A stretch of DNA of 42,324 bases from Mesorhizobium xinjiangense (GTDB lineage Bacteria; Pseudomonadota; Alphaproteobacteria; Rhizobiales; Rhizobiaceae), in NCBI RefSeq assembly GCF_009749525.1, contig NZ_WOAC01000033.1, positions 1 through 42,324 on the forward strand. The letters run 5' to 3'. The notes below the pieces were generated by a model. That model was not told the DNA's origin, did not search any database, and saw only the letters and a program-made list of their open reading frames with translations. Shown here piece by piece: positions 12,849 through 30,255 of the stretch. The first letter of the stretch is position 1; every line of letters begins with the position of its first letter. Both the position numbers and the translations under genes were made by a program.

Positions 12849-12879
12849 GCGTCCCTCCCGGCGTCTTGCCGCGTGGCTA

Positions 12880-14192: not shown

Positions 14193-14286
14193 GTTTATCC
14201 TCCCGAATTGGCCCGAAGTGGCGAGCGAGACGGCGGGGCAATGTTGCGCGGGCAAGTGTGCGCGCTCGCCACCGCCCCTTCGCGCC

Positions 14287-15348: not shown

Positions 15349-15428
15349 CGCTCTATCCTCCTCCAATCACGCGGCCCGATTCCCGCCTTGGCATATGGTT
15401 CATTGGACCGCATTTCATCAGCGTCATC

Positions 15429-15439
15429 TGGTAATACCA
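15429..15439. promoter_or_regulatory. TGGTNNNACCA operator copy 1
   Basis: TGGTAATACCA, an 11-base symmetric site in the form bound by FadR-type GntR proteins. It lies 80 bases upstream of the leftward isomerase gene. Confidence 0.55.
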
Positions 15440-15605
15440 AACAGGCCCGACGCGTCAAGAGACACCATTGTGCGCTGGTGAGCAAGTCACCGGCTCCGCA
15501 TGGCGGCAAGCATCATTAATACGTGCACTTCAACAGAAATCGGCATCACGACTCGTCCTTGCAGGGTGAACGATAATACGCTAGACGAATTTTACGGCTC
15601 AAAAT

Positions 15606-15616
15606 TGGTCTAACCA
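15606..15616. promoter_or_regulatory. TGGTNNNACCA operator copy 2
   Basis: TGGTCTAACCA with extended symmetry (AAT before, GTT after; 15603-15619). It lies 75 bases upstream of the rightward isomerase gene. Confidence 0.6.
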
Positions 15617-15690
15617 GTTTGGGCTAAACAATGACAAAGCGGCATGGCGACCAAAGCCGGAGACCGCATCGATCACGGGAGGAACTGGAC

Positions 15691-16578
15691 ATGCATCTGT
15701 CGACGCACAACTGGATGCGCGCCGAACCGCTGGAAGTCACCCTGAAGCGGATCAAGCAGTTCGGATACGAATCGATCGAGATTTCAGGAGAACCCGAACA
15801 GTACAAGGTGGCAGAGACCCGCGCCCTGCTGAAGGAGCATGGAATACGCTGCTGGGGCGCCGTGACGTTGATGCTCGGCGAACGCAATCTCGCCGCGAAG
15901 GACCAGGGCCAGCGCGAGCGCTCGGTCCAGTATGTCAAGGACGTGCTCACGATGGTGAGTGAGCTCGACGGCGAGATCATAACCCTTGTGCCGTCAACGG
16001 TCGGCAAGGTCGTGCCGGATGGCACGGAAGAGGAGGAATGGAACTGGGTGGTGGATGCCACACGTGAATGTTTCACCCACGCGAAGAAGGTCGGCGTGCG
16101 CGTGGCGGTCGAACCGCTCAACCGCTTCGAGACCTACCTGTTCAACCGCGGCGAGCAGGCGCTGGCGCTGGCCGACGCGGTGAGCCCCGAATGCGGCGTC
16201 TGCCTCGATGCCTATCATCTTCACATGGAGGAATTCGACGTCGAGGAGGCGATTCGCAAGGCGGGCAAGCGCCTGTTCGACTTCCATGTCGCCGACAACA
16301 ATCGCTTTGCCGCCGGTCTCGGCACGATCGACTGGCCAAGGATTGTCTGCATCCTGGAGGATATCGGTTATGACGGCGCGCTGACCAACGAATTCGTCGC
16401 ACCGGTCGACCGCACGCCCGCCAACCGCTATCCCGACATGGTCGAGCGCAACCCGGTCGACATCTCGCCCGAGCAGCTGAAGTTCATCCAGGACCACGGT
16501 TCGAGCCTGCTCACCGAAAAATTCTACACCGACCAGATGCGCATCACGGCGGAAACGATCCTGCCGCTGATCAAATAG
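15691..16578 (+). CDS. Sugar isomerase/epimerase-family TIM barrel
   Basis: This 295-residue protein is read from ATG 15691, where GGGAGGA lies 8 bases upstream; an extension to 15631 has no ribosome site. It is an AP-endonuclease-2-type TIM barrel with the epimerase metal site: Glu in AVEPLNRFETYL, Asp-His in CLDAYHLHMEE, His in DFHVADNNR, G-TIDW, and Glu in LTNEFVAP. It is paralogous to the product of 11997-12848 but clearly diverged. A 56-base gap separates it from the enolase-superfamily gene, so they form an operon with the GntR gene behind. Confidence 0.85.
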   Translation: MHLSTHNWMRAEPLEVTLKRIKQFGYESIEISGEPEQYKVAETRALLKEHGIRCWGAVTLMLGERNLAAKDQGQRERSVQYVKDVLTMVSELDGEIITLVPSTVGKVVPDGTEEEEWNWVVDATRECFTHAKKVGVRVAVEPLNRFETYLFNRGEQALALADAVSPECGVCLDAYHLHMEEFDVEEAIRKAGKRLFDFHVADNNRFAAGLGTIDWPRIVCILEDIGYDGALTNEFVAPVDRTPANRYPDMVERNPVDISPEQLKFIQDHGSSLLTEKFYTDQMRITAETILPLIK

Positions 16579-16634
16579 AGATCGCAATGCAAGGCCGAGG
16601 CTGCCGCCTCGGCGACGGTGGACTGGGTTCGAAC

Positions 16635-17804
16635 ATGCGTATCAGCAAGGTCCGGGCATGGTGGGTCACGATTCCCATAGAAGCGAAGCGCCAGCATCGC
16701 AGCGACTTCGGCCGGCTGCAGACCTTCGATTCCGCAATCGTGCGCGTCGAGACCGATGATGGGCTCGTCGGCTGGGGAGAAGGCAAGAACGCCGCCGGCA
16801 GCGCCGGCACATACGGCACGCTTGTGCATCTGATCAACCACGAAATCGGGCCGATGCTCGTTGGTCGCCACGCCGGCGACATCACGACCATCTGGGAAGC
16901 GATCTACAATGGCGTAAGGGCGGATCTGGCAGGCTCGGGTGGCCATGCCATGCCCGAATTGTCGCGCCGGGGTCTGACAGTCGCAGCAATCAGTGCGATC
17001 GACATCGCACTTTGGGACATTCTCGGCAAGTCGCTCGGCCAGCCCGTCTGGCAATTGCTCGGCGGACGCAAAGCCGACCGCCTGCCTGCTTACGCCTCGG
17101 GCGGCTGGGCCGATGCGGGCAACATCGGCGAACAGCTCAACGCCTATATCGCGTCCGGCGGCTTCCAGGCGGTCAAGATGCGCGTCGGTGCCATGGACGG
17201 AGGACCCCAGGTTTCGGCTGCCCGTGTGCGAGCGGCCCGCCAGGCGATCGGGCCCGAAGTCGACCTCATGGTCGATGCCCACGGCACCTACACGGTCGCG
17301 GAGGCAAAGCGGTTCATCCACATGGTGGCCGATTGCGACCTCGCCTGGTTCGAGGAACCGGTGGTGGCCGACGACAAGCGTGGGACTGCAGAGGTAAGGG
17401 CTGCGGGCCCGGTTCCGATCGCGACAGGGGAGTCGGAAGCCACGCGCTTCGCCTTTCGCGAACTCGCCATTCTGCGGGCGGCAGACATATTCCAGCCGGA
17501 CCCGGCTTTCTGCGGCGGCATTACGGAGGCGATGCGCATTGGAGCGCTTGCCAGCGCCTTCAATCTCAGACTCGCGCCCCACCTGTGGGCGGGGGCTCCT
17601 TGTTTCTTTGCCGGCCTGCATGTCTGCGCGGCCTCGCCGGCCAGCTTCATCATCGAGTTTTCGCTTGGTGCCAATCCGATGATCCACGACCTGATCGATG
17701 AAACCGTCGAGGTCAAGGATGGTATGATTGCAATTCCCGACAAGCCGGGGCTGGGATTCACGATCTCCGAGAGATTCCTGAAAATGCACGCGCAAGGCTC
17801 ATGA
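16635..17804 (+). CDS. Mandelate racemase/muconate lactonizing enzyme family dehydratase
   Basis: This 389-residue enolase-superfamily enzyme has the N-terminal capping domain (MRISKVRAWWVTIPIE, FDSAIVRVETDDGLVGWGE) and then the barrel. Catalytic positions visible are the Lys of AVKMRVG, metal ligands Asp in MVDAHGTY, Glu in AWFEEPVVADD and Glu in ATGESEA, and a His in RLAPHLWAG near residue 315. The K-x-R plus H arrangement suits acid-sugar dehydratases or racemases. The product is probably a 2-keto-3-deoxy sugar acid. An earlier ATG at 16587 is possible, but family members begin at MRISKV. Its stop overlaps the GntR start (ATGA). Confidence 0.87.
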   Translation: MRISKVRAWWVTIPIEAKRQHRSDFGRLQTFDSAIVRVETDDGLVGWGEGKNAAGSAGTYGTLVHLINHEIGPMLVGRHAGDITTIWEAIYNGVRADLAGSGGHAMPELSRRGLTVAAISAIDIALWDILGKSLGQPVWQLLGGRKADRLPAYASGGWADAGNIGEQLNAYIASGGFQAVKMRVGAMDGGPQVSAARVRAARQAIGPEVDLMVDAHGTYTVAEAKRFIHMVADCDLAWFEEPVVADDKRGTAEVRAAGPVPIATGESEATRFAFRELAILRAADIFQPDPAFCGGITEAMRIGALASAFNLRLAPHLWAGAPCFFAGLHVCAASPASFIIEFSLGANPMIHDLIDETVEVKDGMIAIPDKPGLGFTISERFLKMHAQGS

Positions 17805-18523
17805 CGATGAAGGAAAACGGACTGCTGCCCGAACTGGCGGCTTATCTCTACACCCATTCCGATCCGGAAAGAGGCCGCACGCCGTCGGAGCGCGAGCTGG
17901 CGGAGCATTTTTCCGTCAGCAGAGGCCAGATACGCGAGGCGCTCGCGATACTGGAGGCAATGCGCATCGTGGAGCGCCGCGCCAAGTCCGGCATCTATCT
18001 CACGACGACCGACACCAGCGTGGAGGCGCTGGCGCTGTTCGCCAAGGCCGGCCTGCCGCTCGACCCGATCCAGATCTACGAGACGGTGGAACTCAGGAAG
18101 ATCCACGAGATCAAGGCTGCCGAACTCGCCTGCACCCGGGCCACGGAGGAAAATTTCGAACGGTTGCGCGAAATTCTGGCCCGTTCCGAAGAGAAGGTGG
18201 CCAAAGGAGAGCCGCTTGCGCGCGAGGACCGTGATTTTCACCTCGAGATCGTGCGTGCCACCAAGAACAGCGTCTTTCACAAGATCTGCTCGATCTACTA
18301 CGTGATGGGCGAGCAGCGTCTGCCCGTCTATTTCTCGGACCCCGAACGCGGTCGGCGCTCGCACGCCGAGCATATCCAGATCTATGAGGCGCTGGAGCGG
18401 CGGGACGGCAACCTCGCACAGGCCCTGATGAGCGCCCATCTGCAGGGTGCGGAAAGCTACTGGAAGGGCCTGATCAGCGGCACCGACGCGAACAATCCCA
18501 ACTCCGAGCTCGAAAGCGCCTGA
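17801..18523 (+). CDS. FadR-type GntR-family regulator (FCD domain)
   Basis: This 240-residue regulator has a winged helix (RTPSERELAEHFSVSRGQIREALAILEAM..) in residues 25-75 and an all-helical FCD ligand domain. The FCD metal site is suggested by DFHLEIVRATKN, HAEHIQIYEALERRD and SAHLQGAESYW. FCD regulators often sense small organic or sugar acids, which suits the dehydratase operon it belongs to (ATGA overlap with the preceding stop). It is the best candidate to bind the TGGTNNNACCA sites at 15429, 15606, 25397, 25573 and 30095. That link is inference from motif type and position. Confidence 0.9.
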   Translation: MTMKENGLLPELAAYLYTHSDPERGRTPSERELAEHFSVSRGQIREALAILEAMRIVERRAKSGIYLTTTDTSVEALALFAKAGLPLDPIQIYETVELRKIHEIKAAELACTRATEENFERLREILARSEEKVAKGEPLAREDRDFHLEIVRATKNSVFHKICSIYYVMGEQRLPVYFSDPERGRRSHAEHIQIYEALERRDGNLAQALMSAHLQGAESYWKGLISGTDANNPNSELESA

Positions 18524-18559
18524 GCGCCGCCCCGAGATTGTCTCCGCGCACAATCTTCA

Positions 18560-18769
18560 CCGATATCGCTCAATCGGAAGAACGCGCTCTTTGCTGGTCG
18601 TGATGCTGGCGCAGAGAACTGGGCGACCATCGCGTCGCTCATCGAAACGTGCAAGCTCAATTCGGTTGATCCCTTCGCCTATCTGACGGCCACCCTGACC
18701 GTCATTGTCAACGGCCATAAACAGAGCCGGATCGATCAGCTTCAGCCGTGGAAGTATGCGGCAACGTAA
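18560..18769 (+). mobile_element. tnpC: IS66-family transposase C-terminal remnant
   Basis: The frame from about 18569 reads LNRKNALFAGRDAGAENWA, TIASLIETCKLNSVDPFAYL, then VNGHKQSRIDQLQPWKYA, and stops at 18767-18769. This is the highly characteristic C-terminus of the IS66 large transposase; full proteins are about 500 residues. Nothing upstream of about 18560 continues it, since the GntR gene ends at 18523, and no IS ends are seen. It is a dead fragment marking a past insertion or recombination. Confidence 0.85.
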
Positions 18770-18828
18770 TCTGCGCCAACCGGAACGCTGTCCCCCGACC
18801 CAACGTGGGCACCGGGCCGGGAGCCTTC

Positions 18829-19224
18829 TCAGCTATCGAGGAGAGCCGTGCCGTAGGAATTGTCTACAGCGCATAACCAGGTGCCAGACGAGTCCCGACG
18901 AAACACATAGGTGGCACGTCGTACCGTCGACGTCGCAATGCCGCTTTCGTCGACGGCATCCAACCAGGTTTCCATGATGACCAGCGCTGTGTCTCCGCCC
19001 TCGATCACCTCCATCCTCCCTTGGCGGACTTTCAATTTACCTTGGAAATGAGCAGAGATTGCTTCGAACGCTTTCCTGATCTGGTCTTTGCCTTTGGCGT
19101 ACATGCCTGCCTTGACCACCAAGGTGGCATCATCGGTGTAAAATCGCATCAAGCCGTCGAAGTCTTTGGCCGATATGGAACGGTCTGCAGATTCGATAAG
19201 GGTTTTCAAGGGATGGTCGGACAT
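18829..19224 (-). CDS. NTF2-like/SnoaL-family protein (DUF4440 type)
   Basis: This 131-residue protein has the cone-shaped NTF2 fold pattern: a first helix with LKTLIESADRSISAKDFDGLMRFYTDDATL, GKDQIRKAFEAI, then strands GDTALVIMETWLD, STVRRATYVFRRDS and TWLCAVDNSYG. Members are ketosteroid-isomerase-like small-molecule enzymes or binding proteins. The substrate is unknown. Start ATG 19224 has TTGGAG 7 bases before; ATG use 4 codons upstream would sit on the ribosome site itself. The gene stands directly behind a terminator hairpin and a leader peptide that together form an amino-acid attenuator (19257-19362), an unusual arrangement for this family. Confidence 0.8.
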   Translation of the reverse strand: MSDHPLKTLIESADRSISAKDFDGLMRFYTDDATLVVKAGMYAKGKDQIRKAFEAISAHFQGKLKVRQGRMEVIEGGDTALVIMETWLDAVDESGIATSTVRRATYVFRRDSSGTWLCAVDNSYGTALLDS

Positions 19225-19249
19225 TCTGGACTCCAAAATGGCCGCGAGC

Positions 19250-19278
19250 GGAAAACAAAACCCGCCTCGCGGCGGGTT
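19250..19278 (-). terminator. Attenuator terminator in front of the NTF2-like gene
   Basis: On the minus strand AACCCGCC-GCGA-GGCGGGTT (19259-19278) forms a perfect 8-bp stem with a 4-base loop, and TTGTTTTC follows (about 19251-19258). This is a Rho-independent terminator placed between a leader peptide and the gene, as in amino-acid attenuation. Its 5' arm can pair instead with GGTGGGTT at the end of the leader frame (19305-19312). Confidence 0.75.
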
Positions 19279-19302
19279 GCTTTGTCTTGAAATATGACGT
19301 GC

Positions 19303-19362
19303 TTAACCCACCACTCGATGAATGGTGATAATAATCAAAGTGAAAGCGCGAACAAATTCCAT
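19303..19362 (-). CDS. Leader peptide of an Ile/Thr/Val-type attenuator
   Basis: A 19-codon frame reads MEFVRAFTLIIITIHRVVG and stops at 19303-19305. It is rich in Thr, Leu, Ile and Val, the pattern of ilv-type leaders. Three segments fit the classic scheme. CACCA in the Ile-Thr-Ile codons (19323-19327) can pair with TGGTG (19309-19313). The overlapping GGTGGGTT (19305-19312) can pair with the 5' arm of the terminator. The terminator itself is at 19259-19278. A ribosome stalled on the Ile/Thr codons would free GGTGGGTT to form the antiterminator. The ribosome site is weak. Such leaders are known upstream of acetolactate synthase genes, but here an NTF2-like gene follows. Confidence 0.65.
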   Translation of the reverse strand: MEFVRAFTLIIITIHRVVG

Positions 19363-19544
19363 GGTGCGTCTTTATCACCAGCGTCAGCGACTGGCAAATG
19401 ATCACGTCCAATTTTGAGCAAGCTAGTCAAGGTGCCAGCGGCACCCCGTTTACTCTTCACCCAGAGGCAGCGGCGATGCACGAAGCCGTTTGAATCTCCA
19501 GATTGTGTGGAGCAGACCAAGCCAGGCAGGCGCCATCAGGCCCG

Positions 19545-20621
19545 TCAGGTATTGTGGCGCAAGCTTAGTCCGCTGGTCTTGTCGAAGAGGACGACCTTTT
19601 CCGGATCCCAGGAGAAACGCACCTGCTCGTCGATCGCCAGGCGGTCGCGCGCAGACGTTGTCAGCCGCACCAGCCCCTCGCCGACCCGCAAGGTCACGAT
19701 CTTGGCGACGCCATGGTTCTCCACGTCATGCACGGCGGCTTCCGCCGGGGCGCCCGGATCGAGGAACATGTCCTCGGGACGAATGCCGAACGTGATCGGA
19801 CGCCCGTTGCCCGCGCCGTTCGCCGATGCGGCGACCGGGAGCGAGAAGCCGGCGTCCGTCACCGCCAGCCCGCCGGAGAGCGAGCCGTCGATCAGGTTCA
19901 TGGGTGGCGAGCCCACCGACCGTGCCACGAACGTGTTGCGGGGATTGCCGTAGATCTCCGAAGGTGTTCCCACCTGAACGAGGCGCCCATTGTCGAGCAC
20001 GCCGATCCTGTCACCCATCGACATCGCCTCGACCTGATCATGGGTCACGAACAGGAAGGTCGCGCCAAGGTTCATCTGCAGGTTCTTGAGCTCGGTCCTG
20101 AGCGTCTCGCGCAGCTTCGCGTCCAGCGCCGACAGGGGCTCATCCATCAGGAACACGCGCGGTTGCCTGACGATCGCACGGCCAATCGAAACGCGCTGCA
20201 TCTCACCGCCTGAAAGCCGGTCCGTCTTGCGGTCGAGCAGGTGATCGATGCGCAGCGTCCTGGCGACCCGGTCGACGCGCCGCGCCATGTCGTCCGGCTC
20301 GACCTTCCTGATCTTCGACTTGAGCGGAAACTCCAGATTTTCGCGAACCGTATAGCGGGGATAAAGCGAGTATTGCTGCAGCACCAGCGCCACGTCACGC
20401 TCCGCCGCCCCCCAATCGCTGACATCGACGCCGTCGATCAGAACGGTCCCCTCGGTCGGTTTCTCCAATCCCGCCACGATGCGCAGCGTCGTCGTCTTGC
20501 CGGCACCGGTTTCGCCAAGCAGCACGAAGAACTGGCCGTCCTCGACTTCAAGGTCCAGCCCTTTCAGCGCCGTCTTGGCACCGAATGTCTTGGTGATGTT
20601 TCTGAGCTCGATATGCGCCAT
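19545..20621 (-). CDS. Sugar-type ABC transporter ATP-binding protein (second ATPase of the operon)
   Basis: This 358-residue MalK/UgpC-type ATPase has Walker A GETGAGKTT (residues 37-45), LSGGEMQRVSIGRAI as signature, Walker B VFLMDEPLSALD and the switch His in VTHDQVEAMSMG. A C-terminal regulatory OB-like domain follows (GIRPEDMFLD, near residue 280). Walker A carries ETGAG instead of the common PSGCG, as in the S-type half of two-ATPase polyol transporters. It starts 3 bases after the stop of the other ATPase gene. Having two different ATPases suggests a heterodimer, as in the rhizobial glycerol transporter GlpST. Confidence 0.9.
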   Translation of the reverse strand: MAHIELRNITKTFGAKTALKGLDLEVEDGQFFVLLGETGAGKTTTLRIVAGLEKPTEGTVLIDGVDVSDWGAAERDVALVLQQYSLYPRYTVRENLEFPLKSKIRKVEPDDMARRVDRVARTLRIDHLLDRKTDRLSGGEMQRVSIGRAIVRQPRVFLMDEPLSALDAKLRETLRTELKNLQMNLGATFLFVTHDQVEAMSMGDRIGVLDNGRLVQVGTPSEIYGNPRNTFVARSVGSPPMNLIDGSLSGGLAVTDAGFSLPVAASANGAGNGRPITFGIRPEDMFLDPGAPAEAAVHDVENHGVAKIVTLRVGEGLVRLTTSARDRLAIDEQVRFSWDPEKVVLFDKTSGLSLRHNT

Positions 20622-20624
20622 GAC

Positions 20625-21728
20625 CTACAATTTCACTCCGAGAGACCTGCCGGTCGCCGTGTCGAAGAAATGTGCCTGCTCGGGGTCGATGCGGACATGG
20701 ACCGTTTCGCCGACCCGCGGCACGAAGCCGGCAGGTGTCCGGGCACGGATCACGCCGCCGCCGACCTGGAGATCGACGATATCGTGCGAGCCGAGCGGCT
20801 CGATGATGTGTGCCGCCAAGGGCAGATACCCCGCCTTGGATTCGCGTGACACGAGCACCCCTTCGGGCCGGATGCCGAGCGACAGGCCGCCTGAGGCGTG
20901 GCCGTTGAGTTTGGCGAGCAGCCTACTCGGAAACTCGAAGCCGGCGTCCCTGGGATCGAGGTGGACACGCACCGCGCCGCCCTCCTCGCTGACCCGCGCG
21001 TCGGCGACGTTCATCACCGGGCTGCCGACGAACTGGGCAACGAACAGATTGTACGGGTGGGCATAGACTTCTTCAGGCGTACCGACCTGCTGCAGGACGC
21101 CCTCATGCATGATGACGATGCGGTCGGCCAGGCTCATGGCCTCCACCTGATCGTGCGTCACATAGACCGTGGTCGAGCCCTGCTTGACGTGCAGCCGCTT
21201 GATTTCGGCGCGCATCTCCTCGCGCAGCTTGGCATCGAGCGCACCGATCGGCTCGTCCATCAGCATCGCCTTGGGATGGCGCACCAATGCCCGACCGATC
21301 GCCACGCGTTGCATGTCGCCGCCCGACAATGCCGAGGGCCGGCGGTCGAGAAGATCGGTGATCCGCAGCACGCTGGCGATCTCGCGCACGCGGCTTTCGA
21401 GGTCGTCCTTGTTCATGCGCGTGGCGCGTAGTGGAAAGGCGATGTTCTCGAAGACCGTCATGTGCGGGTAGAGGGAGAAGGACTGGAACACCATGGCGAT
21501 GTCGCGGTCGGAGGCCTTGAGGTGTTGAACCGCCCTGCCGTCGATGAGGATGTCGCCCTCGTCGATCGTCTCGAGCCCGGCGATCGCGCGCAAGGTCGTC
21601 GTCTTGCCGCAGCCCGACTGGCCGAGCATGACGATGAACTCCCCGTCCTCGATCGTCAGGTTCATGTCCTTGATGACCTGGACGCTGCCAAACCATTTCT
21701 GGACGCCGCGAAGCTCGATATGCGTCAT
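20625..21728 (-). CDS. Sugar-type ABC transporter ATP-binding protein (first ATPase of the operon)
   Basis: This 367-residue MalK/UgpC-type ATPase has Walker A GQSGCGKTT, signature LSGGDMQRVAIGRAL, Walker B AMLMDEPIGALDAK and VTHDQVEAMSLA, followed by the C-terminal regulatory domain (LGIRPEGVLVS). It differs clearly in sequence from its neighbour at 19545-20621, so it is not a recent copy. The start overlaps the small membrane protein stop (ATGA) with GGAGG just before. It energises the permease pair at 21979-23845. Confidence 0.92.
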   Translation of the reverse strand: MTHIELRGVQKWFGSVQVIKDMNLTIEDGEFIVMLGQSGCGKTTTLRAIAGLETIDEGDILIDGRAVQHLKASDRDIAMVFQSFSLYPHMTVFENIAFPLRATRMNKDDLESRVREIASVLRITDLLDRRPSALSGGDMQRVAIGRALVRHPKAMLMDEPIGALDAKLREEMRAEIKRLHVKQGSTTVYVTHDQVEAMSLADRIVIMHEGVLQQVGTPEEVYAHPYNLFVAQFVGSPVMNVADARVSEEGGAVRVHLDPRDAGFEFPSRLLAKLNGHASGGLSLGIRPEGVLVSRESKAGYLPLAAHIIEPLGSHDIVDLQVGGGVIRARTPAGFVPRVGETVHVRIDPEQAHFFDTATGRSLGVKL

Positions 21729-21982
21729 GTGCTTCCTCCGGCCTTCCCTTCGTGGTGGTCGGAAACGTCGAAGGCATCATGCTCAACATCGTCGTCGGCA
21801 CCTATGGACCCTGGCCCGATATGCGAGGTGATGATGAAGCACGCCAGCCCGAAGATCGTGATCGTGATGCCGTAGCGGTGCAGCAGGAAGTTCCACGGCT
21901 GGCAGAGAGCCACGATGCCGAAGATCATCAGCCACATCGATCCCGGTTCGAGATAGCGGCGGTTGAGTTCGCGGAAACTCAT
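21725..21982 (-). CDS. Small two-helix membrane protein of the ABC operon (GlpU-like position)
   Basis: This 85-residue protein starts at ATG 21982, overlapping the permease stop, and ends in an ATGA overlap with the next ATPase gene. It has two hydrophobic segments, MWLMIFGIVALCQPWNFLL and ITITIFGLACFIITSHI, with an acidic, His-rich C-terminal tail (ADDDVEHDAFD). I do not recognise the family. A small membrane protein in the same operon position occurs in the rhizobial glycerol transporter (GlpU), which also has two ATPases, so an accessory role in the transporter is the natural guess. Confidence 0.7.
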   Translation of the reverse strand: MSFRELNRRYLEPGSMWLMIFGIVALCQPWNFLLHRYGITITIFGLACFIITSHIGPGSIGADDDVEHDAFDVSDHHEGKAGGST

Positions 21983-22938
21983 TTGCGGATTGCTCCGAAG
22001 CTCATGCCCCTGAGCAGGTGATTGCGCAGGAGGAAGGTGAAGATTGCAACCGGCAGCAGGAACAGGAAGGTGCCGGCCGCGATGACCGTCCAGTCCGGCA
22101 GACCCGAACCCACCTGGCTGGGAATGAAGGGCGGTGCGGTCTGTGCGTCGCGACGCGTCATGATGAGCGCGAAGGCGTATTCGTTCCATGCGATGATGAA
22201 ACAGAACACGGCGGTGGCGGCGATGCCGGTCGCGGCCTCGGGAAGGACGATCTTGAAGAAGGCCTCCATGCGCGTATAGCCGTCAACCAGCGCCGCTTCC
22301 TCATACTCCCTCGGGATCTCGTCGATGAAGCCCTTCATCAGCCAGACCGAGAAGGAGAGATTGAACGCGGTGTAGAGAATTATCAGCCCGAGATGCGTGT
22401 CGTTGAGAGCGAACCAGCGGTACATCAGGAACATCGGGATCGCCACCACCACGGGTGGCAGCATTCGCGTCGACAAGATAAAGAACAGCCAGTCCTGTTC
22501 CCCTGCCACCTTGAAGCGCGAGAAGCCGTAGGCGGTCAGCGTTCCCATGCCGACCGCGAGAATGGTGGAGACCACCGCCACGATCAGCGAATTCATGAAA
22601 CGGCTCGGATAGCCTGAGAACTGAACATTGCCGCGCCCGTCGCGGACCACCTTTTCGCCACCGTCGAACACCAGCTGCTCCCACCAGGGTGCGGCGGCGT
22701 ATTCCTCCGGCGTCGGCTGCTCGCGCAACTGCGAGCGGCGCAGGAACAGCTTCACGAACGGCGATGTCTCCGGCTGGAACACCACCGTGGGCGGGATGGT
22801 GGTCGCCAGGTGGCGCGGCTTGAAGGCTGTGGACGCGATCCAGTAGATCGGCGCCAGGAAGATGATCGTCACGATCAGAACGGAGACGATCGCAATTCTG
22901 TTGAGGGCGACTTCGGAGCGTGTCTTGACTGCGGCCAC
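21979..22938 (-). CDS. Sugar ABC transporter permease, MalG-type (CUT1)
   Basis: This 319-residue protein begins with GTG 22938, one base after the stop of the other permease gene, under the GGAGCGC site in that gene's end. It has six membrane segments and the EAA loop EYEEAALVDGYTRMEAFFKIVLP (about residue 215), the coupling helix to the ATPases. Between the first segment and the second is a long periplasmic insertion (about residues 50-120) rich in Pro and Arg, larger than in MalG. It forms the membrane channel with the product of 22940-23845. Confidence 0.92.
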   Translation of the reverse strand: MAAVKTRSEVALNRIAIVSVLIVTIIFLAPIYWIASTAFKPRHLATTIPPTVVFQPETSPFVKLFLRRSQLREQPTPEEYAAAPWWEQLVFDGGEKVVRDGRGNVQFSGYPSRFMNSLIVAVVSTILAVGMGTLTAYGFSRFKVAGEQDWLFFILSTRMLPPVVVAIPMFLMYRWFALNDTHLGLIILYTAFNLSFSVWLMKGFIDEIPREYEEAALVDGYTRMEAFFKIVLPEAATGIAATAVFCFIIAWNEYAFALIMTRRDAQTAPPFIPSQVGSGLPDWTVIAAGTFLFLLPVAIFTFLLRNHLLRGMSFGAIRK

Positions 22939-22939
22939 C

Positions 22940-23845
22940 TTAGCGCTCCTTCACCTTGTTGAGGTATTTCACGTAGATGTTGGTGATGGCGACGACCATG
23001 ATCAGCATGATGTAGGCGAGCGCGCTCGACATGCCGGTCTGCCATTCCTGGAACGCCATCTTGTAGAGGCGGATCGAGATCACCTCCGCGGAAGGCTGGC
23101 TGGTCAGGATGAAGGCCAGGTCGAATGTCTTGAACGCTTCCATGGTGCGAAAGATGATCGCGATCATCAGGATGGGCGCGACCAGCGGCAGCGTTATACG
23201 GAAAAATGTGTAGAAGGGTCCGGCGCGGTCGATCGCAGCCGCCTCGTAGAGATGCTTCGGCACCGCTGAAAGTCCCGCCAAAGACAAGAGCATCACGAAG
23301 GGCGACCACATCCATATGTCGGTGATCGCCACCGCATAGAGCGCCATGTCGGGATTGGAGAGCCATTCGAAGCGGCCCAGACCCAGCGCATAGTTGATGA
23401 TGCCGAACGAGGGGTCGTAAAGCAGCTTCCAGAACAGCCCGACCACGGCCATGGACAGCATCATCGGCAGCAGCAGCAGCGTGGTGATGAACCCCTTGAA
23501 CGGGATCGACCGGTTGAGAAGCATCGCCACGCCGAAGCCGACGATGACCTGACCTGCCACGGAGACGATGACGTATTTCGCCGTGATGGCGAAATTGGCC
23601 CAGATGAAGGGGTCATTGAGCAGCTCGCGGTAGTTGGCGAGGCCCACCCAGTTCGCCGGCGCATTCGTCGAAGCGCGGAAATCCGTGAAGGAATAATACA
23701 GCGAATAGAGCAACGGAAAGATGTTGAAGACGATCAGGAACACGATCGTCGGAATGATGAACGCGTTGCGGATCGTGAGGTCGCTCCAGCCGCGGCGCGC
23801 AGCGCGCGATTGTGGATCCAGCCTCGTCATCACAAGGGTTGCCAA
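22940..23845 (-). CDS. Sugar ABC transporter permease, MalF-type (CUT1)
   Basis: This protein of about 301 residues has six membrane segments and the EAA loop LYEAAAIDRAGPFYTFFRITLP (about residue 210). The start is set at TTG 23845 because GGGAGGAG lies 7 bases ahead of it; the frame's upstream extension to 23875 would place this ribosome site inside the gene. It follows the binding-protein gene by 86 bases and precedes the MalG-type permease gene. Confidence 0.9.
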   Translation of the reverse strand: MATLVMTRLDPQSRAARRGWSDLTIRNAFIIPTIVFLIVFNIFPLLYSLYYSFTDFRASTNAPANWVGLANYRELLNDPFIWANFAITAKYVIVSVAGQVIVGFGVAMLLNRSIPFKGFITTLLLLPMMLSMAVVGLFWKLLYDPSFGIINYALGLGRFEWLSNPDMALYAVAITDIWMWSPFVMLLSLAGLSAVPKHLYEAAAIDRAGPFYTFFRITLPLVAPILMIAIIFRTMEAFKTFDLAFILTSQPSAEVISIRLYKMAFQEWQTGMSSALAYIMLIMVVAITNIYVKYLNKVKER

Positions 23846-23931
23846 AGACCTACTCCTCCCGGTCACAGGGGTCATGCCCGCCGAATGACGCGAGGGGCGA
23901 CCGTGGCCGCCCTCTCGCAGTTCCGCCAGGC

Positions 23932-25242
23932 CTACTCGTAGCGCTTGTATTTTTCGAAGGTCGACTTCCAGTCGGCGGCCAATGCGTCGAGCGCATCCTT
24001 GGCCGTGCCCTCGCCCGCCGTGATGTAGGGATAGATGCGCTGGTTCATCTGGATCAGCAGCTCGGCATATTCCGGCGTCGCCCAGAAATCCTTCACCTTG
24101 AACATGGTCTGGTAGAAGGCCTCGTTGTAGGGTGTCGCGTTGCGGAATTCCTCCGACTCCAGCGTCTTGGCGTGGGCCGTGTAGCCGCCGAGCTCGGCCC
24201 AGCGCTTCTGCACGTCGTCACGAATGAACCACTCGAGGAATTTCATCGCCTCTTCCTGGTTCTCCGAATAGGAGACGATGGAGATGCCCTGCCCGCCGAG
24301 AGCGGCAAACTGGTCACCGTCCGGACCGGTCGGATTGGCGAAGAAGCCGGTCACCGCAGCATTCGGGTTCGATGCCTCGTTCACCAGCGCCGGGAAGAAG
24401 GCGAAGTAGTTCATGCTCATCGCCGCCAGGTTCTCGGTGATCGCCTGATTGTTCTCGACGAAGAAGGTCTTGGCCCAACCGGGGGGCGTGAAGCCGTAGA
24501 GTTCCCGGTACACCTCGAGCGCCTTCACGTTCTGCTCGGAATTGACGATGCCCTCGACCTCGTAGGTCTCGTAGTTGCCGAGTTCGCCGCCATAGGAGAA
24601 GATGGCGTTCTCGACCCCCATCACCAGGCCGTCATAGGAGTTGTCCGTATAGATGGCGATGCCATAGCGGTTGTCGTCCGGACGGTGGAAGAACTCCGCG
24701 ATGTCGCGCATCTGGGCCCAGGTCTCCGGCGGCGCCAGATCGTAGCCGTATTTTTCCTTGAAGGCGGCCATCTCGGCCGGATCTTCAAACCAGTCCTTGC
24801 GGTAGGACCAGCCGACCGCATCGCCTTCAGCCGGGATCGCCCAGTATTTTCCGGAATTGGAAGGGTATTCGGCGTAGTACTTGACCGTCGCCGGAGCCAT
24901 CACTTCGCTAAGGTTGTGCTTGTTGAAGAACTCCGTCAGATCAACATAGTGTCCCGCCTCGGACGCCGCACCAAGCCACTGTGAATCGCCGACAACCATG
25001 TCGTACGCCGAGCCGCGCGCATTGAACTCGGTGAAGGCCTTGGTCTGGAAGTCCGACCACGGCGTGGTCTCCACCGTTACGCGGACTCCGGTCTCTGCCT
25101 CGTACTCGTTTACGAGTTCCTGCAGATAGTTCGCCGGATCCCATTCGGCCCAGAAGATGGTGAGCTCCTGCGCGAACGCCGACGTCCCACAGGCAAGCGT
25201 AAAGGCCATGCCAGCCAGAAGGCCGGTTGCTCTATTTCGCAT
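23932..25242 (-). CDS. Extracellular sugar-type solute-binding protein (family 1)
   Basis: This 436-residue periplasmic protein is read from ATG 25242, 7 bases after GGGAGG. A signal peptide (MRNRATGLLAGMAFTLACG, cut after AFA near residue 23) precedes the mature LTIFWAEWDPANYLQELVNEY. This opening, WSDFQTKAFTEF and MSMNYFAFFPALVNE are typical of CUT1 binding proteins for sugars, polyols or glycerol phosphates. A Cys at residue 17 lies before the signal cleavage site, so it is not a lipoprotein motif. It is the first gene of the operon 19545-25242. Two TGGTNNNACCA sites lie upstream. Confidence 0.92.
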   Translation of the reverse strand: MRNRATGLLAGMAFTLACGTSAFAQELTIFWAEWDPANYLQELVNEYEAETGVRVTVETTPWSDFQTKAFTEFNARGSAYDMVVGDSQWLGAASEAGHYVDLTEFFNKHNLSEVMAPATVKYYAEYPSNSGKYWAIPAEGDAVGWSYRKDWFEDPAEMAAFKEKYGYDLAPPETWAQMRDIAEFFHRPDDNRYGIAIYTDNSYDGLVMGVENAIFSYGGELGNYETYEVEGIVNSEQNVKALEVYRELYGFTPPGWAKTFFVENNQAITENLAAMSMNYFAFFPALVNEASNPNAAVTGFFANPTGPDGDQFAALGGQGISIVSYSENQEEAMKFLEWFIRDDVQKRWAELGGYTAHAKTLESEEFRNATPYNEAFYQTMFKVKDFWATPEYAELLIQMNQRIYPYITAGEGTAKDALDALAADWKSTFEKYKRYE

Positions 25243-25396
25243 GTTCATTCCTCCCGTTTTGCACATGCCGGCTTCGGCCGGCCTCGCGCTTCATTGCGGG
25301 TTGTGCCGAAGTTGCCGCAGCCCGCAAGTTCCCTGTTCATTCTCCTCGTTCCGCCGACAATCCGAAGGATATCCTCCAATACCTTCAGACCCAATC

Positions 25397-25407
25397 TGGT
25401 ATTACCA
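25397..25407. promoter_or_regulatory. TGGTNNNACCA operator copy 3
   Basis: TGGTATTACCA, flanked by AATC and AAATT, lies 155 bases upstream of the binding-protein start. Confidence 0.55.
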
Positions 25408-25453
25408 AAATTGAAGAATAGTCAAGCCCTCTTCACACTCTCGCAAACCCGAC

Positions 25454-25474
25454 TTTTGGGCTACTTGCCCAAAA
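25454..25474. promoter_or_regulatory. Inverted repeat in the ABC promoter region
   Basis: TTTTGGGC and GCCCAAAA are separated by 5 bases. It could be the site of the adjacent TetR-type regulator or a hairpin; no T-tract follows. Confidence 0.35.
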
Positions 25475-25572
25475 TTTACCCATTTCAACCGATTTTTGCA
25501 GCTGGCCATGAAAGTCCACAATAGGGATGCTGGTCAATACCCGCCAGTGAGGGTGCACGAATTGAGCCAATC

Positions 25573-25583
25573 TGGTCAAACCA
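25573..25583. promoter_or_regulatory. TGGTNNNACCA operator copy 4
   Basis: TGGTCAAACCA (AATC before, GTT after) lies 15 bases beyond the TetR gene stop, 331 bases upstream of the binding-protein start. Confidence 0.55.
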
Positions 25584-25597
25584 GTTAAGAGCCCTGC

Positions 25598-26230
25598 CTA
25601 CCCGCCTTTCTGCCCTCCCGCGATCGTTGCCTCTACCAAGGACAGCGCCGCCCATTCGGCCACGGAAAAGGCCTGCCGCTCGCTCAGGCCCCACATGTCC
25701 TTCAAGACGATCAGCACCTCCACGCCGAACATGAGCGAAAGCGCCTGCGCCAGCCGGCCGACCTGCTGCGGCGGCAACGTTCCGCGCAATGGCTGCAAGG
25801 CCTGCTTCAGAAGATCGACGCGGTGCCCGCGCGTAAAACGCGGCTCCGCATCCGAACTGCCCTCCCCCTGCGCCGCCTGCTCCAGAGACAGCTTCAGCGC
25901 AGCACGGAAGGTCGCCTCGAATTCGGCGATCCGGGGCATGGAGCTGCGCAACAATTCCCCGACGCGCTGCCGGGCGTCATCCGATTGCGATTGCCATGTC
26001 AGGATCGGACCGAGCGCCTCGTCGACCACGGCATGCACGAGCGCAGCCTGGCTTGGAAAGTAGCGATAGGCCGTGGCGCGCGAGACCTCGGCGGCTTCAG
26101 CCACCTCGCTGACCGAGGGCGTTTTCCCCTCCTGCATCAGCCGCGTCGCCGTCTCCAGCATCAGCCGCCGCGTCCGAGCCCGAGGCCCGCGCTCAGCGAC
26201 CTTCTCTCGTTGTTGACGTGAGATATCCAT
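25598..26230 (-). CDS. TetR-family transcriptional regulator
   Basis: This is a regulator of about 210 residues. Residues 15-65 form the TetR DNA-binding domain (RRLMLETATRLMQEGKTPSV, then SEVAEAAEVSRATAYRYFPS), followed by a helical ligand domain (LLRSSMPRIAEFEATFRAALKLSL). The start is unsure: ATG 26230 is the first giving the expected N-terminus, but none of the candidates (26230, 26254, 26257) has a good ribosome site. It is divergent from the UPF0261 gene with only 70 bases between, so it probably represses that operon. The gap carries AT-rich GATATCCATATC and spaced TGAGA/TCTCA arms. Confidence 0.85.
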   Translation of the reverse strand: MDISRQQREKVAERGPRARTRRLMLETATRLMQEGKTPSVSEVAEAAEVSRATAYRYFPSQAALVHAVVDEALGPILTWQSQSDDARQRVGELLRSSMPRIAEFEATFRAALKLSLEQAAQGEGSSDAEPRFTRGHRVDLLKQALQPLRGTLPPQQVGRLAQALSLMFGVEVLIVLKDMWGLSERQAFSVAEWAALSLVEATIAGGQKGG

Positions 26231-26301
26231 ATCAATATGATACGCGCGTCTCATCAAATTGCAACGCCTTTCGTGGCGGCCGACGATGAGAAGGAGGCGG
26301 A

Positions 26302-27498
26302 ATGGCGCGCATCTATGTCGTCGGCACGGCCGATACCAAGGGAGAAGAACTGGCCTATCTGGCTGGCGTGGTCCGCGATGCCGGCGGCAATCCGCTGATC
26401 GTCGACATCGGCACGCGCGAACCGTCGATCACTGCCGACATCGTAGCCGCCGAAGTCGCCAGCCACCATCGCCTTGGCGCGAACGCCGTTCTGGCCACCG
26501 ACGACCGCGGCACCGCCGTCGCAGCAATGTCCGATGCCTTCTCCGCCTTCGTCGCCTCGCGCACCGACATTTCCGCCATGATCGGCCTTGGCGGCGGCGG
26601 CGGCACGGCAATCGCCACCGCCGGCATGCGACGCCTGCCCTATGGCGTTCCAAAGATCATGGTCTCGACGCTCGCCTCCGGCGACACGGCACCCTACGTC
26701 GATGTCTCCGACATCATCATGGTGCCGTCCGTCACCGACATTGCCGGCCTGAACCGGTTGAGCAGGGTCATTCTGCACAATGCGGGCCGGGCCATCGCCG
26801 CAATGGCGGCCGTGCCGGCGCCGGAGACCGGGGACAAGTCCTCCGTCGGCCTGACGATGTTCGGCGTCACCACACCGTGCGTGACCGCGATCGTCGAGCA
26901 CCTGCGGGGCTCCTATGACTGCATGGTCTTCCACGCCACAGGCACAGGCGGCCGCACGATGGAGAAACTGGCCGACAGCTCGATGCTGACAGGCATTCTC
27001 GACATCACCACGACCGAAGTCTGCGACCACCTGTTCGGCGGCGTACTGCCGGCAACCGAAGACAGGTTCGGAGCGATCGCCCGCACTGGTCTACCCTATG
27101 TAGGATCGGTAGGCGCTCTCGACATGGTCAATTTCTGGGCGCCCGAGACGATCCCCGAGCGCTATCGGGGCCGCAAGTTCTACAAGCACAATCCGAATGT
27201 CACCTTGATGCGCACCACGGCCGAGGAGTGCCGCCGCATCGGCGAATGGATCGGGGCGAAGCTCAATCAGTGCGCCGGGCCCGTGCGCTTCCTGATCCCC
27301 GAAAAGGGCGTCTCGGCGCTCGACATCGAGGGCGGAGCTTTTTTTGACCCTGAAGCAGACGCTGCCCTTTTCGAGGCGCTTGAAGAAACGATCCAGCAGA
27401 CGAATAGCCGCCGCGTCGTTCGACTGCCGCTGCACATCAACGATCCCGAATTCGCCGCGGCGGCAGTCGCCGCCTTCCTCGAAATCGCCAGTCCGTGA
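26302..27498 (+). CDS. Tm-1-like ATP-binding domain protein (UPF0261)
   Basis: This 398-residue protein begins ARIYVVGTADTKGEELAYLAG and continues with IVDIGTREP, AMIGLGGGGGTAIATAG, VSTLASGDTAPYV and DITTTEVCDHLFGGVLPA. These are hallmarks of UPF0261, the family of the N-terminal domain of tomato Tm-1, which binds ATP. In bacteria the function is unproven. Members are often next to the PEP-hydrolase-type TIM barrel gene, as here with 8 bases between. GAAGGAGG lies 7 bases before the ATG. The Gly-rich loop at about residue 98 probably binds a nucleotide phosphate. Confidence 0.92.
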   Translation: MARIYVVGTADTKGEELAYLAGVVRDAGGNPLIVDIGTREPSITADIVAAEVASHHRLGANAVLATDDRGTAVAAMSDAFSAFVASRTDISAMIGLGGGGGTAIATAGMRRLPYGVPKIMVSTLASGDTAPYVDVSDIIMVPSVTDIAGLNRLSRVILHNAGRAIAAMAAVPAPETGDKSSVGLTMFGVTTPCVTAIVEHLRGSYDCMVFHATGTGGRTMEKLADSSMLTGILDITTTEVCDHLFGGVLPATEDRFGAIARTGLPYVGSVGALDMVNFWAPETIPERYRGRKFYKHNPNVTLMRTTAEECRRIGEWIGAKLNQCAGPVRFLIPEKGVSALDIEGGAFFDPEADAALFEALEETIQQTNSRRVVRLPLHINDPEFAAAAVAAFLEIASP

Positions 27499-27506
27499 GT
27501 GTCTGA

Positions 27507-28346
27507 ATGCCTGCAATCCCCCGCAAGACCATCCTCGAACGCTTCCGCTCCATGGTTGCCCAAGGCATACCGATCGTCGGCGGCGGTGCCGGCACCGGCC
27601 TCTCGGCCAAGGCCGAGGAAGCCGGCGGCATCGACCTGATCGTGATCTACAACTCCGGCCGCTATCGCATGGCCGGCCGCGGCTCGGCGGCAGGGCTTCT
27701 CGCCTATGGCAACGCCAACGAGATCGTCAAGGAGATGGCGGTCGAAGTATTGCCGGTGGTGAAGAAGACACCCGTTCTGGCCGGGGTCAACGGCACCGAC
27801 CCGTTTGTGCTGATGCCTCAGTTCCTTGCCGAACTGAAGCAGATGGGCTTCTCCGGCGTGCAGAACTTCCCGACGATAGGTCTGTTCGACGGCGCGATGC
27901 GGATCTCCTTCGAGGAGACGGGAATGGGCTTCGGGCTTGAGGTCGACATGATCGCCGCCGCCCACGATCTCGACCTTCTGACCACGCCCTACGTCTTCAA
28001 CCCCGACGAGGCACAGGCGATGACCAGGGCGGGCGCCGACGTCATCGTCGCCCACATGGGCGTCACCACCGGCGGCTCGATCGGTGCGACCTCGGCCAAG
28101 ACGCTCGACCGGTGCGTGGCTGAGATCGATGCGATCGCGGATGGCGCGCGCAGCGTGCGTGACGACATCATTGTCCTCTGCCACGGCGGGCCGATCGCGA
28201 TGCCCGACGACGCCCGTTTCGTCCTTGAGAACTGCGCCGTCTGCCACGGCTTCTACGGTGCAAGCTCAATGGAACGCCTGCCGGCCGAGGCCGCGATTCG
28301 CGGCCAGACGGCCGATTTCAAAAAACTGCCGGCCCGGACCAGATAG
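27507..28346 (+). CDS. Phosphoenolpyruvate hydrolase-family TIM-barrel protein (Tm-1 C-domain-like)
   Basis: This 279-residue protein opens with [30 protein letters not shown] and continues with [71 protein letters not shown] and [12 protein letters not shown]. This matches the PEP-hydrolase/phosphonomutase-like TIM-barrel family that forms the C-terminal part of plant Tm-1. The GAGTGLSAK loop probably holds a phosphate. The reaction is not established. It follows the UPF0261 gene by 8 bases and lacks a strong ribosome site of its own, so coupling is likely. Confidence 0.9.
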
Positions 28347-28359
28347 GAGGAGAAGAGCA

Positions 28360-28776
28360 ATGAGCGGCGAAGGGGATAAGTTCGTCTATGCGAAGGATGT
28401 CAGCGCATTCGGCTTCGACTGGGGGCGCCTCTCGCTCACCGTCGCGCCCGAGGTCAACGGCGCGGAGCGCTTCTCAGGCGGCCTCGTCGAGGTGAAACCC
28501 GGCATGGGCCACGAACGGCACAATCATCCCGGCGCGGAGGAGATCATCTTCGTCATCGCCGGCGAAGGCGAGCAGATGGTCGAGGACGAGAACGGGAATC
28601 CGGTGACACGCAAGGTCGGCCCTGGCTGCACCGTCTATGTACCGGAAAGCCGCTACCACTCGACGCTCAATACGGGATCCGGACCGATGCAGCTTTTCGT
28701 TGTCTATTCGCCGGCCGGTCCGGAACGGGCCCTGCGCGACCTGCCCGATTTCAGACTGCTGCCTCCGGGCGAATAG
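28360..28776 (+). CDS. Small single-domain cupin protein
   Basis: This 138-residue cupin is preceded by TAGGAGGAG and is 13 bases from the gene before. The first cupin motif is GHERHNHPGAEEIIFVIAGEG, with two His and a Glu as probable metal ligands, and the second is GPGCTVYVPESRYHSTLNT with a His. This suggests a metal-dependent isomerase, dioxygenase or sugar-binding protein. It completes the operon with the two Tm-1-like proteins. Substrate unknown. Confidence 0.88.
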   Translation: MSGEGDKFVYAKDVSAFGFDWGRLSLTVAPEVNGAERFSGGLVEVKPGMGHERHNHPGAEEIIFVIAGEGEQMVEDENGNPVTRKVGPGCTVYVPESRYHSTLNTGSGPMQLFVVYSPAGPERALRDLPDFRLLPPGE

Positions 28777-28780
28777 CCGC

Positions 28781-28882
28781 TAGATCGGTTCATTGCTTCA
28801 CGGAATCGATGAACCGATCTAACCTTTTGATTTGACGCAATTCCGGACGGAGAACCGGTTTCCACTTCTCCTGGAATTGCTC
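28781..28882. repeat. Rhizobial intergenic palindromic repeat (RIME-like)
   Basis: Two hairpins stand side by side between convergent genes: TAGATCGGTTCAT/ATGAACCGATCTA (28781-28821), and a longer one with outer arms GCAATTCC/GGAATTGC (28837-28880) enclosing GGACGGAGAACCGG. This second sequence is the familiar core of dispersed rhizobial repeats. It probably acts as a bidirectional end for the cupin and M24 transcripts. Confidence 0.8.
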
Positions 28883-30072
28883 TAGGCAGCGCCGCGATTC
28901 CAGCCCCGGCCCCGATCCCCATACATCTCGTATCCGGTGTCGGTGACGGCCAGCGTGTCTTCCAGCTTGATGAAGCCGCGCTTGGGGTGAAGCATCGTCG
29001 TCTCGACCGAAATCACCATGCCGGCCTCGAGCTGCCGGTTGACGTCGACGCCTTCATAGGTGACTGGATGATTGGTCATCAGGAACGGGGCTTCGTGCGT
29101 GATCAATCCCATTCCATGCGCGAAGAAGTCGGTGAACGCAGCGATTTGAGATGACGCCAGACGCGCCTGGCCGGCTTCGATCAGGGCGCCGCCGGCCGCG
29201 CCCGCCTTCACCTTCGAGAAGGCCGCCTGCTGCACCGCGTCGACCTCGCCCAGCAGGCCTTCCAGCTCTGGATCCGGCTCACCCAGGATGCCCATGCGGC
29301 AAAGGTCGCCTATATATCCGCGAAAGTTGCCACCGGAGTCGATCGACAGCACCTCGCCCGCATTCCATGTCTGGTCGGAAGCCGCACGGTTGTGGCTGGG
29401 GCCGAGCGTCAGCAGGCAATATTCGAACTGGAGACCGCGCTGCGTCTCCTCCTGTCGCAGCCGCTCGATGATCGCCCTCTTGGACGTTCCCTCGCCCGCC
29501 CAGCCGATCGTTGCCTGCATGGCGTCGGTGATCATCTCGGATGCATGCCTGAGTTTTTCCAGTTCCTCCGGCGTCTTGACGGCGCGTAGCCGCTCCAGCA
29601 TGGCTGTCGCATCCACGAGACTGGCGTTCGGCAGCCCGGCCGCGATGATCTTGTAGGCGTCGACCGGCAGGAAGCCCGGTTCGATCCCGATGCGGGCATT
29701 CTCCTTGCCGATTGTCCTGACATGCTCGACCGCAAGCTCCGCCGCTTCCCAGGACGTCCAGGTCGCAGGATGAAGCGTCGGCGTCCAGAACGGATGGTTG
29801 GCGTGCTCGCCTCCTTCCATGCGGTTCGCGATATAGGCGGCGTGGTCGGTCCGGCCCCTCTCATAGGCGACAACCGGCAGGTAACGGCTGTGGCCGATGG
29901 CGTCCATGGCCGAGAAGAAGATGAACCGATAGCCCCCAAGCAGATACTGGGTGTTGTGTTTCGAGGTCGCCAACACCACGTCGATACCGGCGTCTTCCAT
30001 GAGCCCGTCAAGACGGCCGGTGTCAAAGGGAATGGCGGCAGGGGACTGCTCGTGGGTGCTCGAAATGTTCAC
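28882..30072 (-). CDS. M24-family Xaa-Pro peptidase-like protein
   Basis: This protein is about 396 residues from GTG 30072; a longer frame to 30117 is possible, but AAGGAG lies 11 bases before the GTG. It has the creatinase-type N-domain (LMEDAGIDVVLATSKHNTQY) and the pita-bread C-domain. The five metal ligands are all visible: Asp in LSIDSGGNF, Asp in GYIGDLCRM, His in FAHGMGLITHE, Glu in ISVETTML and Glu in KLEDTLAV. It is therefore probably an active dimetal hydrolase cleaving an X-Pro or similar amide bond. A TGGTNNNACCA site lies 23 bases before its start. It is convergent with the cupin operon. Confidence 0.88.
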   Translation of the reverse strand: MNISSTHEQSPAAIPFDTGRLDGLMEDAGIDVVLATSKHNTQYLLGGYRFIFFSAMDAIGHSRYLPVVAYERGRTDHAAYIANRMEGGEHANHPFWTPTLHPATWTSWEAAELAVEHVRTIGKENARIGIEPGFLPVDAYKIIAAGLPNASLVDATAMLERLRAVKTPEELEKLRHASEMITDAMQATIGWAGEGTSKRAIIERLRQEETQRGLQFEYCLLTLGPSHNRAASDQTWNAGEVLSIDSGGNFRGYIGDLCRMGILGEPDPELEGLLGEVDAVQQAAFSKVKAGAAGGALIEAGQARLASSQIAAFTDFFAHGMGLITHEAPFLMTNHPVTYEGVDVNRQLEAGMVISVETTMLHPKRGFIKLEDTLAVTDTGYEMYGDRGRGWNRGAA

Positions 30073-30094
30073 GCTACCGCAGCTCCTTGCAATT

Positions 30095-30105
30095 TGGTCG
30101 GACCA
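30095..30105. promoter_or_regulatory. TGGTNNNACCA operator copy 5
   Basis: TGGTCGGACCA inside the nearly symmetric AATTTGGTCGGACCAATT (30091-30108). It lies 23 bases ahead of the M24 gene start, overlapping the probable promoter. Confidence 0.6.
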
Positions 30106-30255
30106 ATTCCCGATCATCCGGCGAAGGCCGTCTCTATGTCAAGCAAGTAGTCTCGAGAGCACACCAGCGTCACTGCTCCCGGCCAGCCAGTCTCGCCGAA
30201 GTCTCCGGGCATCGCCGCCCACTGCAGCGATAATCCCGGAGACAGTCACAGCCGA

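Follow-up and report, generated by a model that had tools for sequence, protein, structure and literature searches.

A conserved GntR-type repressor regulon with paired operators predicted in a sugar-gene cluster of Mesorhizobium xinjiangense

Positions 1 to 42,324 of contig NZ_WOAC01000033.1 from Mesorhizobium xinjiangense (hereafter the window, the whole stretch of DNA analysed) carry a loosely annotated sugar-gene cluster in which the palindrome TGGTNNNACCA recurs. This raises the question of which protein reads these sites and with what effect on transcription. Very probably, the sites are operators of a single repressor, the FCD-type GntR protein encoded at 17801-18523, which would control its own operon, the divergent isomerase operon, the transporter operon and an M24 peptidase-family gene in response to an inducer and probably with the aid of a DNA loop.

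Exactly five TGGTNNNACCA sites are present in the window, at 15429, 15606, 25397, 25573 and 30095, as a preliminary description of this DNA had claimed for the pattern TGGT-3-ACCA. Dinucleotide shuffles of the window contained 0.19 sites on average and five were reached in 0 of 100. The motif is not spread over the genome at random frequency: 30 core sites were counted in 5,256,375 bases (73 for the reversed control pattern), and the density in the rest of the genome predicts 0.20 sites for the window (P for at least five, 2.4e-6). Among the 25 core sites outside the window, 23 lie within mechanically called open reading frames (ORFs) of at least 100 amino acids and two (L002 and L177) do not. 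The pattern AATYTGGTNNNACCARTT occurs exactly at 25569 and 30091, with one mismatch at 15602, two at 25393 and three at 15425. With up to two mismatches, AATCTGGTNNNACCAGATT is found in the whole genome at 25393 and 25569 only; three mismatches add 15602 and a coding site (C10:7952), the other two window sites having more than three. The placement of all five sites in intergenic promoter regions holds for the isomerase region and for the transporter, whose sites lie between the transporter operon and the 3' end of tetR on the same strand, in a region that is not divergent. Site 30095 is intergenic only given the GTG codon 30070-30072, which follows a Shine-Dalgarno-like stretch and is the likely M24 start, since it falls within the ORF that is read from ATG 30117. 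Within the window, no TGGTNNNACCA precedes the UPF0261, PEP-hydrolase-like or cupin genes.

The cluster arrangement is seen again in loci of relatives, among the matches listed. A pair of sites was called in 104 of 108 isomerase loci; of the four exceptions, L096 is truncated and the other three (L172, L232 and L233) do carry a pair, which runs into the gene start as assigned by blast. Such starts make all site-to-start distances approximate. Two perfect sites were found in 99 of the 103 isomerase loci that offer enough sequence; one locus has three, and the other three combine a perfect site with one of a single mismatch. In Aquibium sp. ELW1220 (L076, 7539-7724), a third perfect site (7571) lies between the isomerase operators. 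With one mismatch allowed over both sites, all 46 loci from GntR-bearing genomes whose upstream DNA could be read have the transporter pair, L201 being counted as GntR-bearing on a GntR fragment only; the GntR gene lies outside the fetched stretch in 11 of these loci and, in five of the 11, on another contig. The remaining 24 of 70 transporter loci comprise five without upstream sequence, 15 from GntR-less genomes and four paralogous copies. No perfect site was found in the 500 bp upstream of the orthologous transporter in any of the 15 GntR-less genomes, a term that means no match at E 1e-30 (two genomes) or 1e-60 (all 15), so that a diverged copy could escape. The four paralogous copies likewise lack a perfect site upstream, and six distant transporter copies (43-46% identity) have no site within 500 bp (L212 has one with a single mismatch at -686). 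Two genomes of other families encode a 53%-identical GntR together with the same epimerase-dehydratase operon, and in both of them two perfect sites, spaced 139 bp in one and 127 bp in the other, stand before an unrelated ABC operon. The sites thus track the regulator and not one particular transporter. This co-occurrence across genomes strengthens their assignment to the gene at 17801-18523 and, like the conservation of the motif in orthologous promoters, supports the earlier proposal of one regulon under this GntR protein.

Sites were also found at genes that have moved away from the cluster. A scan for ATYTGGTNNNACCARAT with up to one mismatch in 18 genomes (15 with GntR) led to 28 further fetched sites among the matches listed; this set excludes two sites with an intact core as well as those whose mismatch falls within TGGT/ACCA, only one of which comes from a genome with GntR. 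Sixteen of the 28 stand directly before orthologs of window genes, namely the epimerase of 11997-12950 (5), the IolE-like isomerase with the oxidoreductase (2), M24 (7) and the DJ-1 family (2). Fifteen of them are far from the main cluster, and L260 is less than 6 kb from the transporter. As the moved genes keep their operators, the regulator likely acts in trans. Seven further sites precede one family of FGGY kinases (xylB), two tested members of which pass the curated XylB cut-off; a gene next to the kinase, tested as one fragment, matches xylose isomerase models below the full-length cut-offs. The last five sites lie elsewhere. The xylB of the window genome itself has no site with up to two mismatches within 500 bp.

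By their position relative to promoters, the five operators are of different kinds: two lie over a -10 element, and O_R lies past one. The Sinorhizobium meliloti sigma-70 consensus is given as CTTGAC-N17-CTATAT (PMC2873474). In each of the 46 loci with the transporter pair, the transporter-proximal operator contains a -10-like hexamer, 15-17 bp upstream of which CTTGAC is found without a mismatch. The same arrangement was seen for O_L, mostly at 16-17 bp, in 28 of 34 'genus-diverse' isomerase loci, which we chose from the 104 with a pair and which carry no correction for phylogeny; two more have five of the six bases. Control operators had a perfect CTTGAC in 0/46 (transporter) and 0/34 (isomerase) loci. 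O_R follows the best -10 by 16-19 bp in 29 of the 34 loci, in a search without shuffled control. The central three bases of the operators vary by site class, which would be explained if they are part of the -10 in one class and free in the other. In the proposed mechanism, GntR without inducer would cover the two -10 elements in O_L and the transporter-proximal operator directly, and on O_R it would be bound immediately downstream of the rightward promoter's start. At both paired promoters, a repressor holding two DNA sites would probably bring together the operators, which are some 176-180 bp apart, and loop the DNA between them, until it is released by an acid formed in the breakdown of the sugar, likely a sugar acid.

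The suggestion of a loop arises from the spacing of the paired operators, which is kept at about 180 bp despite little identity in between. In representatives thinned by shared 8-mers only, the isomerase pair has a median spacing of 180 bp with a median absolute deviation of 0 (n = 66), and the transporter pair one of 176 bp with a deviation of 2 (n = 44). Exactly 180 bp were found in 16 of the 34 chosen isomerase loci at a mean intersite identity of 39%, and the columns that are well kept belong for the most part to the promoters and to a central TCA-N5-TTA element. A precedent is known from the tetrameric FCD-type GntR protein Atu1419, described as looping 190 bp (PMC7797058). Helical phasing was considered as proof of a loop and rejected: it is strong only with related loci counted (Rayleigh R 0.74 over the 66 isomerase representatives), and the 44 transporter representatives give R 0.34.

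Several observations weigh against a single looped regulon under this GntR. The genome holds 26 FCD genes, so a paralog could bind. A single one-mismatch site was found at four GntR-less or paralogous loci (L225 and L227 among the 15 GntR-less genomes, L208 and L231 among the four paralogous copies), and the GntR-less genomes are also the more distant relatives. Some pairs are spaced differently, at 139-156 bp (isomerase) and at 65 or 99 bp (transporter). Counted over distinct spacings, helical phase falls short of significance (p 0.29 for 11 isomerase spacings, 0.33 for 18 of the transporter). Finally, wider isomerase spacings tend to go with longer intergenic regions (rank correlation rho 0.66, n = 61; for the transporter pair 0.05, n = 42), and such a correlation is described as a sign of independent sites (PMC4494728).

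The rival that survives best would have the same GntR dimer block each promoter separately from each operator, the constant spacing having another cause. We regard it as possible, yet rather doubtful. O_L and O_R each have a promoter of their own, the length correlation is of the expected direction, and M24 and the relocated genes possess single sites, all of which suits independent operators; the retention of 180 bp in diverged sequence does not, nor does the transporter-distal operator, which lies about 190 bp upstream of the promoter, lacks a separate CTTGAC promoter (the 0/46 control) and alone would be without a role. A loop joining the paired operators through the same GntR protein is the reading towards which we lean, if only somewhat.

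A more elaborate form of this loop can be proposed tentatively: a GntR repressosome in which a tetramer would clamp O_L and O_R while IHF bends the exact middle of the loop, closing both divergent promoters. With WATCARNNNNTTR, which we take to be the IHF consensus, a similar motif was found at the loop centre of the 16 loci of exactly 180 bp, with a mean of 6.94 of 9 matches (next offset 4.81), a score reached by 0 of 300 permuted consensuses. The well-kept element at the loop centre agrees with this consensus in many relatives. At least eight matches occur within the central quarter in 13 of 34 loci (2.9 expected) and in the loop flanks in 0 and 1 (0.7 and 1.1 expected). Points against the repressosome are that the window itself has 5 of 9 matches at its loop centre, that the signal is weak in the transporter loop (5/43, 2.8 expected) and that the central motif is absent from the two other-family loops. 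The best IHF-like score anywhere in the loop was discarded as a measure, being no better than in shuffles; the central position alone stands out. The GalR-HU repression loop of the Escherichia coli gal operon has two operators with a DNA-bending protein between them. The likeness to it holds only if the IHF-like motif is real, and GalR belongs to another repressor family, forms a shorter loop and works with HU instead of IHF.

As to the regulator, the protein encoded at 17801-18523 exceeds the Pfam cut-offs for GntR (40.7 of 27 bits) and FCD (91.1 of 24.3 bits). D143, H147, H191 and H213 are invariant across seven aligned proteins and would correspond to the metal ligands of the FCD pocket; their spacing equals that described for N137, H141, H192 and H214 of Atu1419 (PMC7797058). 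The earlier label 'FadR-type' stands in the sense of an FCD-type GntR regulator of the FadR subfamily; the protein is not FadR itself, since FadR_C gave no match at E 0.001. It also falls below every curated cut-off of the NCBIfam equivalogs NanR, LldR, UxuR, ExuR, PdhR and GlcC, NanR being the best model (104.6 of 260 bits). That one of the FCD paralogs binds some or all of the sites instead is improbable. The form TKGT-N3-ACMA is common to many FadR-subfamily regulators (PMC4494728), and in the GntR-less genome L256 (2004) a single perfect palindrome precedes the gene of an E1 dehydrogenase and may belong to another FCD regulator. However, the sites follow the GntR of 17801-18523 across genomes, and the other FCD protein of the window has Gln in place of its recognition-helix Arg41, a residue equated by eye in an alignment with the base-reading Arg45 of Atu1419. 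Very unlikely is a role as activator sites, for which speak two relocated single sites (L238 and L255) that are set well back from the start of the gene and have no recognised promoter element upstream of them, since O_L and the transporter-proximal operator over a -10 and O_R past one imply a blocked polymerase.

The regulon would represent a conserved repressor system of known kind, assembled from parts of known types, with clear operator-promoter geometry, a probable loop and predicted binding. Similar to the window regulator, Atu1419 of Agrobacterium fabrum (VanR group) is described as an FCD-type GntR protein that represses a catabolic gene cluster in an alphaproteobacterium, with an autoregulated divergent promoter and two palindromes, one over a -10, that are 190 bp apart (about 180 here). 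In contrast, its operator is given as ATGTATACAT instead of TGGTNNNACCA, and its tetramer and, by electron microscopy, its loop have been demonstrated (PMC7797058), whereas the window regulator is a putative tetramer. FadR, LldR, PdhR, DgoR, GlcC and ExuR share the TKGT-N3-ACMA operator form and half-site spacing, and double-site divergons are described for the subfamily (PMC4494728); their target genes differ from those of the window regulator, which reaches no equivalog cut-off. E. coli NanR, which supplies the best-matching named family model and, with 6on4, the second-best relative among solved structures, is reported to bind GGTATA direct repeats and not this palindrome (PMC8012715). A literature search, paper supplements being outside its scope, found no description of the regulon.

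The cluster composition suggests a route for a pentose or xyloside, of which the inducer would be an acid: it combines a sugar transporter, epimerases and a dehydratase, and in relatives xylB is under the same operator. FadR-subfamily proteins are described as binding carboxylic acids (PMC4494728). The oxidoreductase, epimerases, dehydratase, M24 and DJ-1 family, of unclear substrate, are thereby tied to a xylulokinase in relatives. Plasmid pSymA of S. meliloti 1021 also carries the cluster, with a transporter pair of 167 bp and an isomerase-region pair of 165 bp in which one site is mismatched. Its GntR ortholog, at NC_003037.1:738165-738842, is 81.5% identical. SMa1334 (398 aa, with three genes behind it) fits UPF0261; insertion mutants, matched to this gene by our reading of the tag, are described as giving normal plants and no nodule expression (PMC3462710). 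A cluster widespread in rhizobia can hence be treated as a single circuit open to testing, its operators and promoters named (Table 1), and the operator distance kept across relatives gives a natural series in which repression loops of the GntR family can be studied.

Table 1 Predicted genes, operators and promoter elements of the cluster in the window
Feature	Position	Strand	Remark
FCD-type GntR regulator, proposed repressor	17801..18523	+	Pfam FCD and GntR, both over cut-off
IolE-like TIM-barrel isomerase, leftward operon gene 1	14287..15348	-	start set by ribosome-binding site
Gfo/Idh/MocA oxidoreductase, leftward operon	12990..14255	-	
Sugar epimerase-like TIM-barrel protein, leftward operon	11997..12950	-	
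Sugar epimerase-like TIM-barrel protein, rightward operon gene 1	15691..16578	+	start probably ATG 15691, not 15631
Enolase-superfamily (MR_MLE) protein, sugar-acid dehydratase-like	16587..17804	+	below every equivalog cut-off
Extracellular solute-binding protein, transporter operon gene 1	23932..25242	-	
Transporter operon, permeases and ATPases	19545..23875	-	permeases 22940-23875, 21979-22938; ATPases 20625-21728, 19545-20621
tetR	25598..26257	-	leftward, same strand as transporter operon
UPF0261, PEP-hydrolase-like and small gene	26302..28776	+	rightward; small gene 28360-28776 labelled cupin from matching S. meliloti gene
M24 peptidase-family gene	28882..30072	-	
O_L, TGGTAATACCA	15429..15439		contains -10-like hexamer 15431-15436 (minus strand TATTAC) of leftward promoter
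-35 CTTGAC, leftward promoter	15454..15459	-	17 bp from hexamer in O_L
Rightward promoter	15558..15586	+	-35 CTTGCA 15558-15563, 17 bp, -10 CTAGAC 15581-15586
O_R, TGGTCTAACCA	15606..15616		19 bp past -10; 177 bp from O_L, start to start
Transporter-proximal operator, TGGTATTACCA	25397..25407		contains -10-like hexamer 25399-25404 (minus strand TAATAC)
-35 CTTGAC, transporter promoter	25421..25426	-	16 bp from hexamer in proximal operator
Transporter-distal operator, TGGTCAAACCA	25573..25583		176 bp upstream of proximal operator
M24 operator, TGGTCGGACCA	30095..30105		about 23 bp before likely GTG start
Possible -35 CTTGAC, M24 promoter	30138..30143	-	no clear -10 read

The M24 gene has a site in all eight loci in which it is not downstream of UPF0261 on the same strand (the window, L123, L152, L156, L157, L158, L170 and L215; UPF0261 is undetected in L123). 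Where it follows UPF0261 on the same strand, an M24 site was found in 0 of 6 loci (L164, L171-L174 and L204); in S. meliloti, where it follows UPF0261 in the same way, it has none either. UPF0261 as a further target was rejected, as no site with up to one mismatch occurs in the 300 bp upstream in the six of six loci read. In L204 (4524-4769), where tetR is undetected, the transporter-distal operator lies within 110 bp before UPF0261.

The UPF0261, PEP-hydrolase-like and cupin-type genes accompany the transporter and do so in most GntR-less genomes too. Within 26190-26301 of the window, before UPF0261, a TGAGAT...GTCTCA dyad surrounds a possible promoter. A GAGAC...GTCTC-like dyad precedes UPF0261 in 35 of 49 loci, the GntR-less L207 and L228 included, which suggests that it may be the operator of the adjoining TetR protein. 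The 14 loci that lack the dyad include L172, L174 and L204, all without tetR. A second FCD-type GntR gene of the window (34520-35206), with no TGGTNNNACCA nearby, adjoins a ribose-type ABC transporter and an Ldh_2 dehydrogenase.

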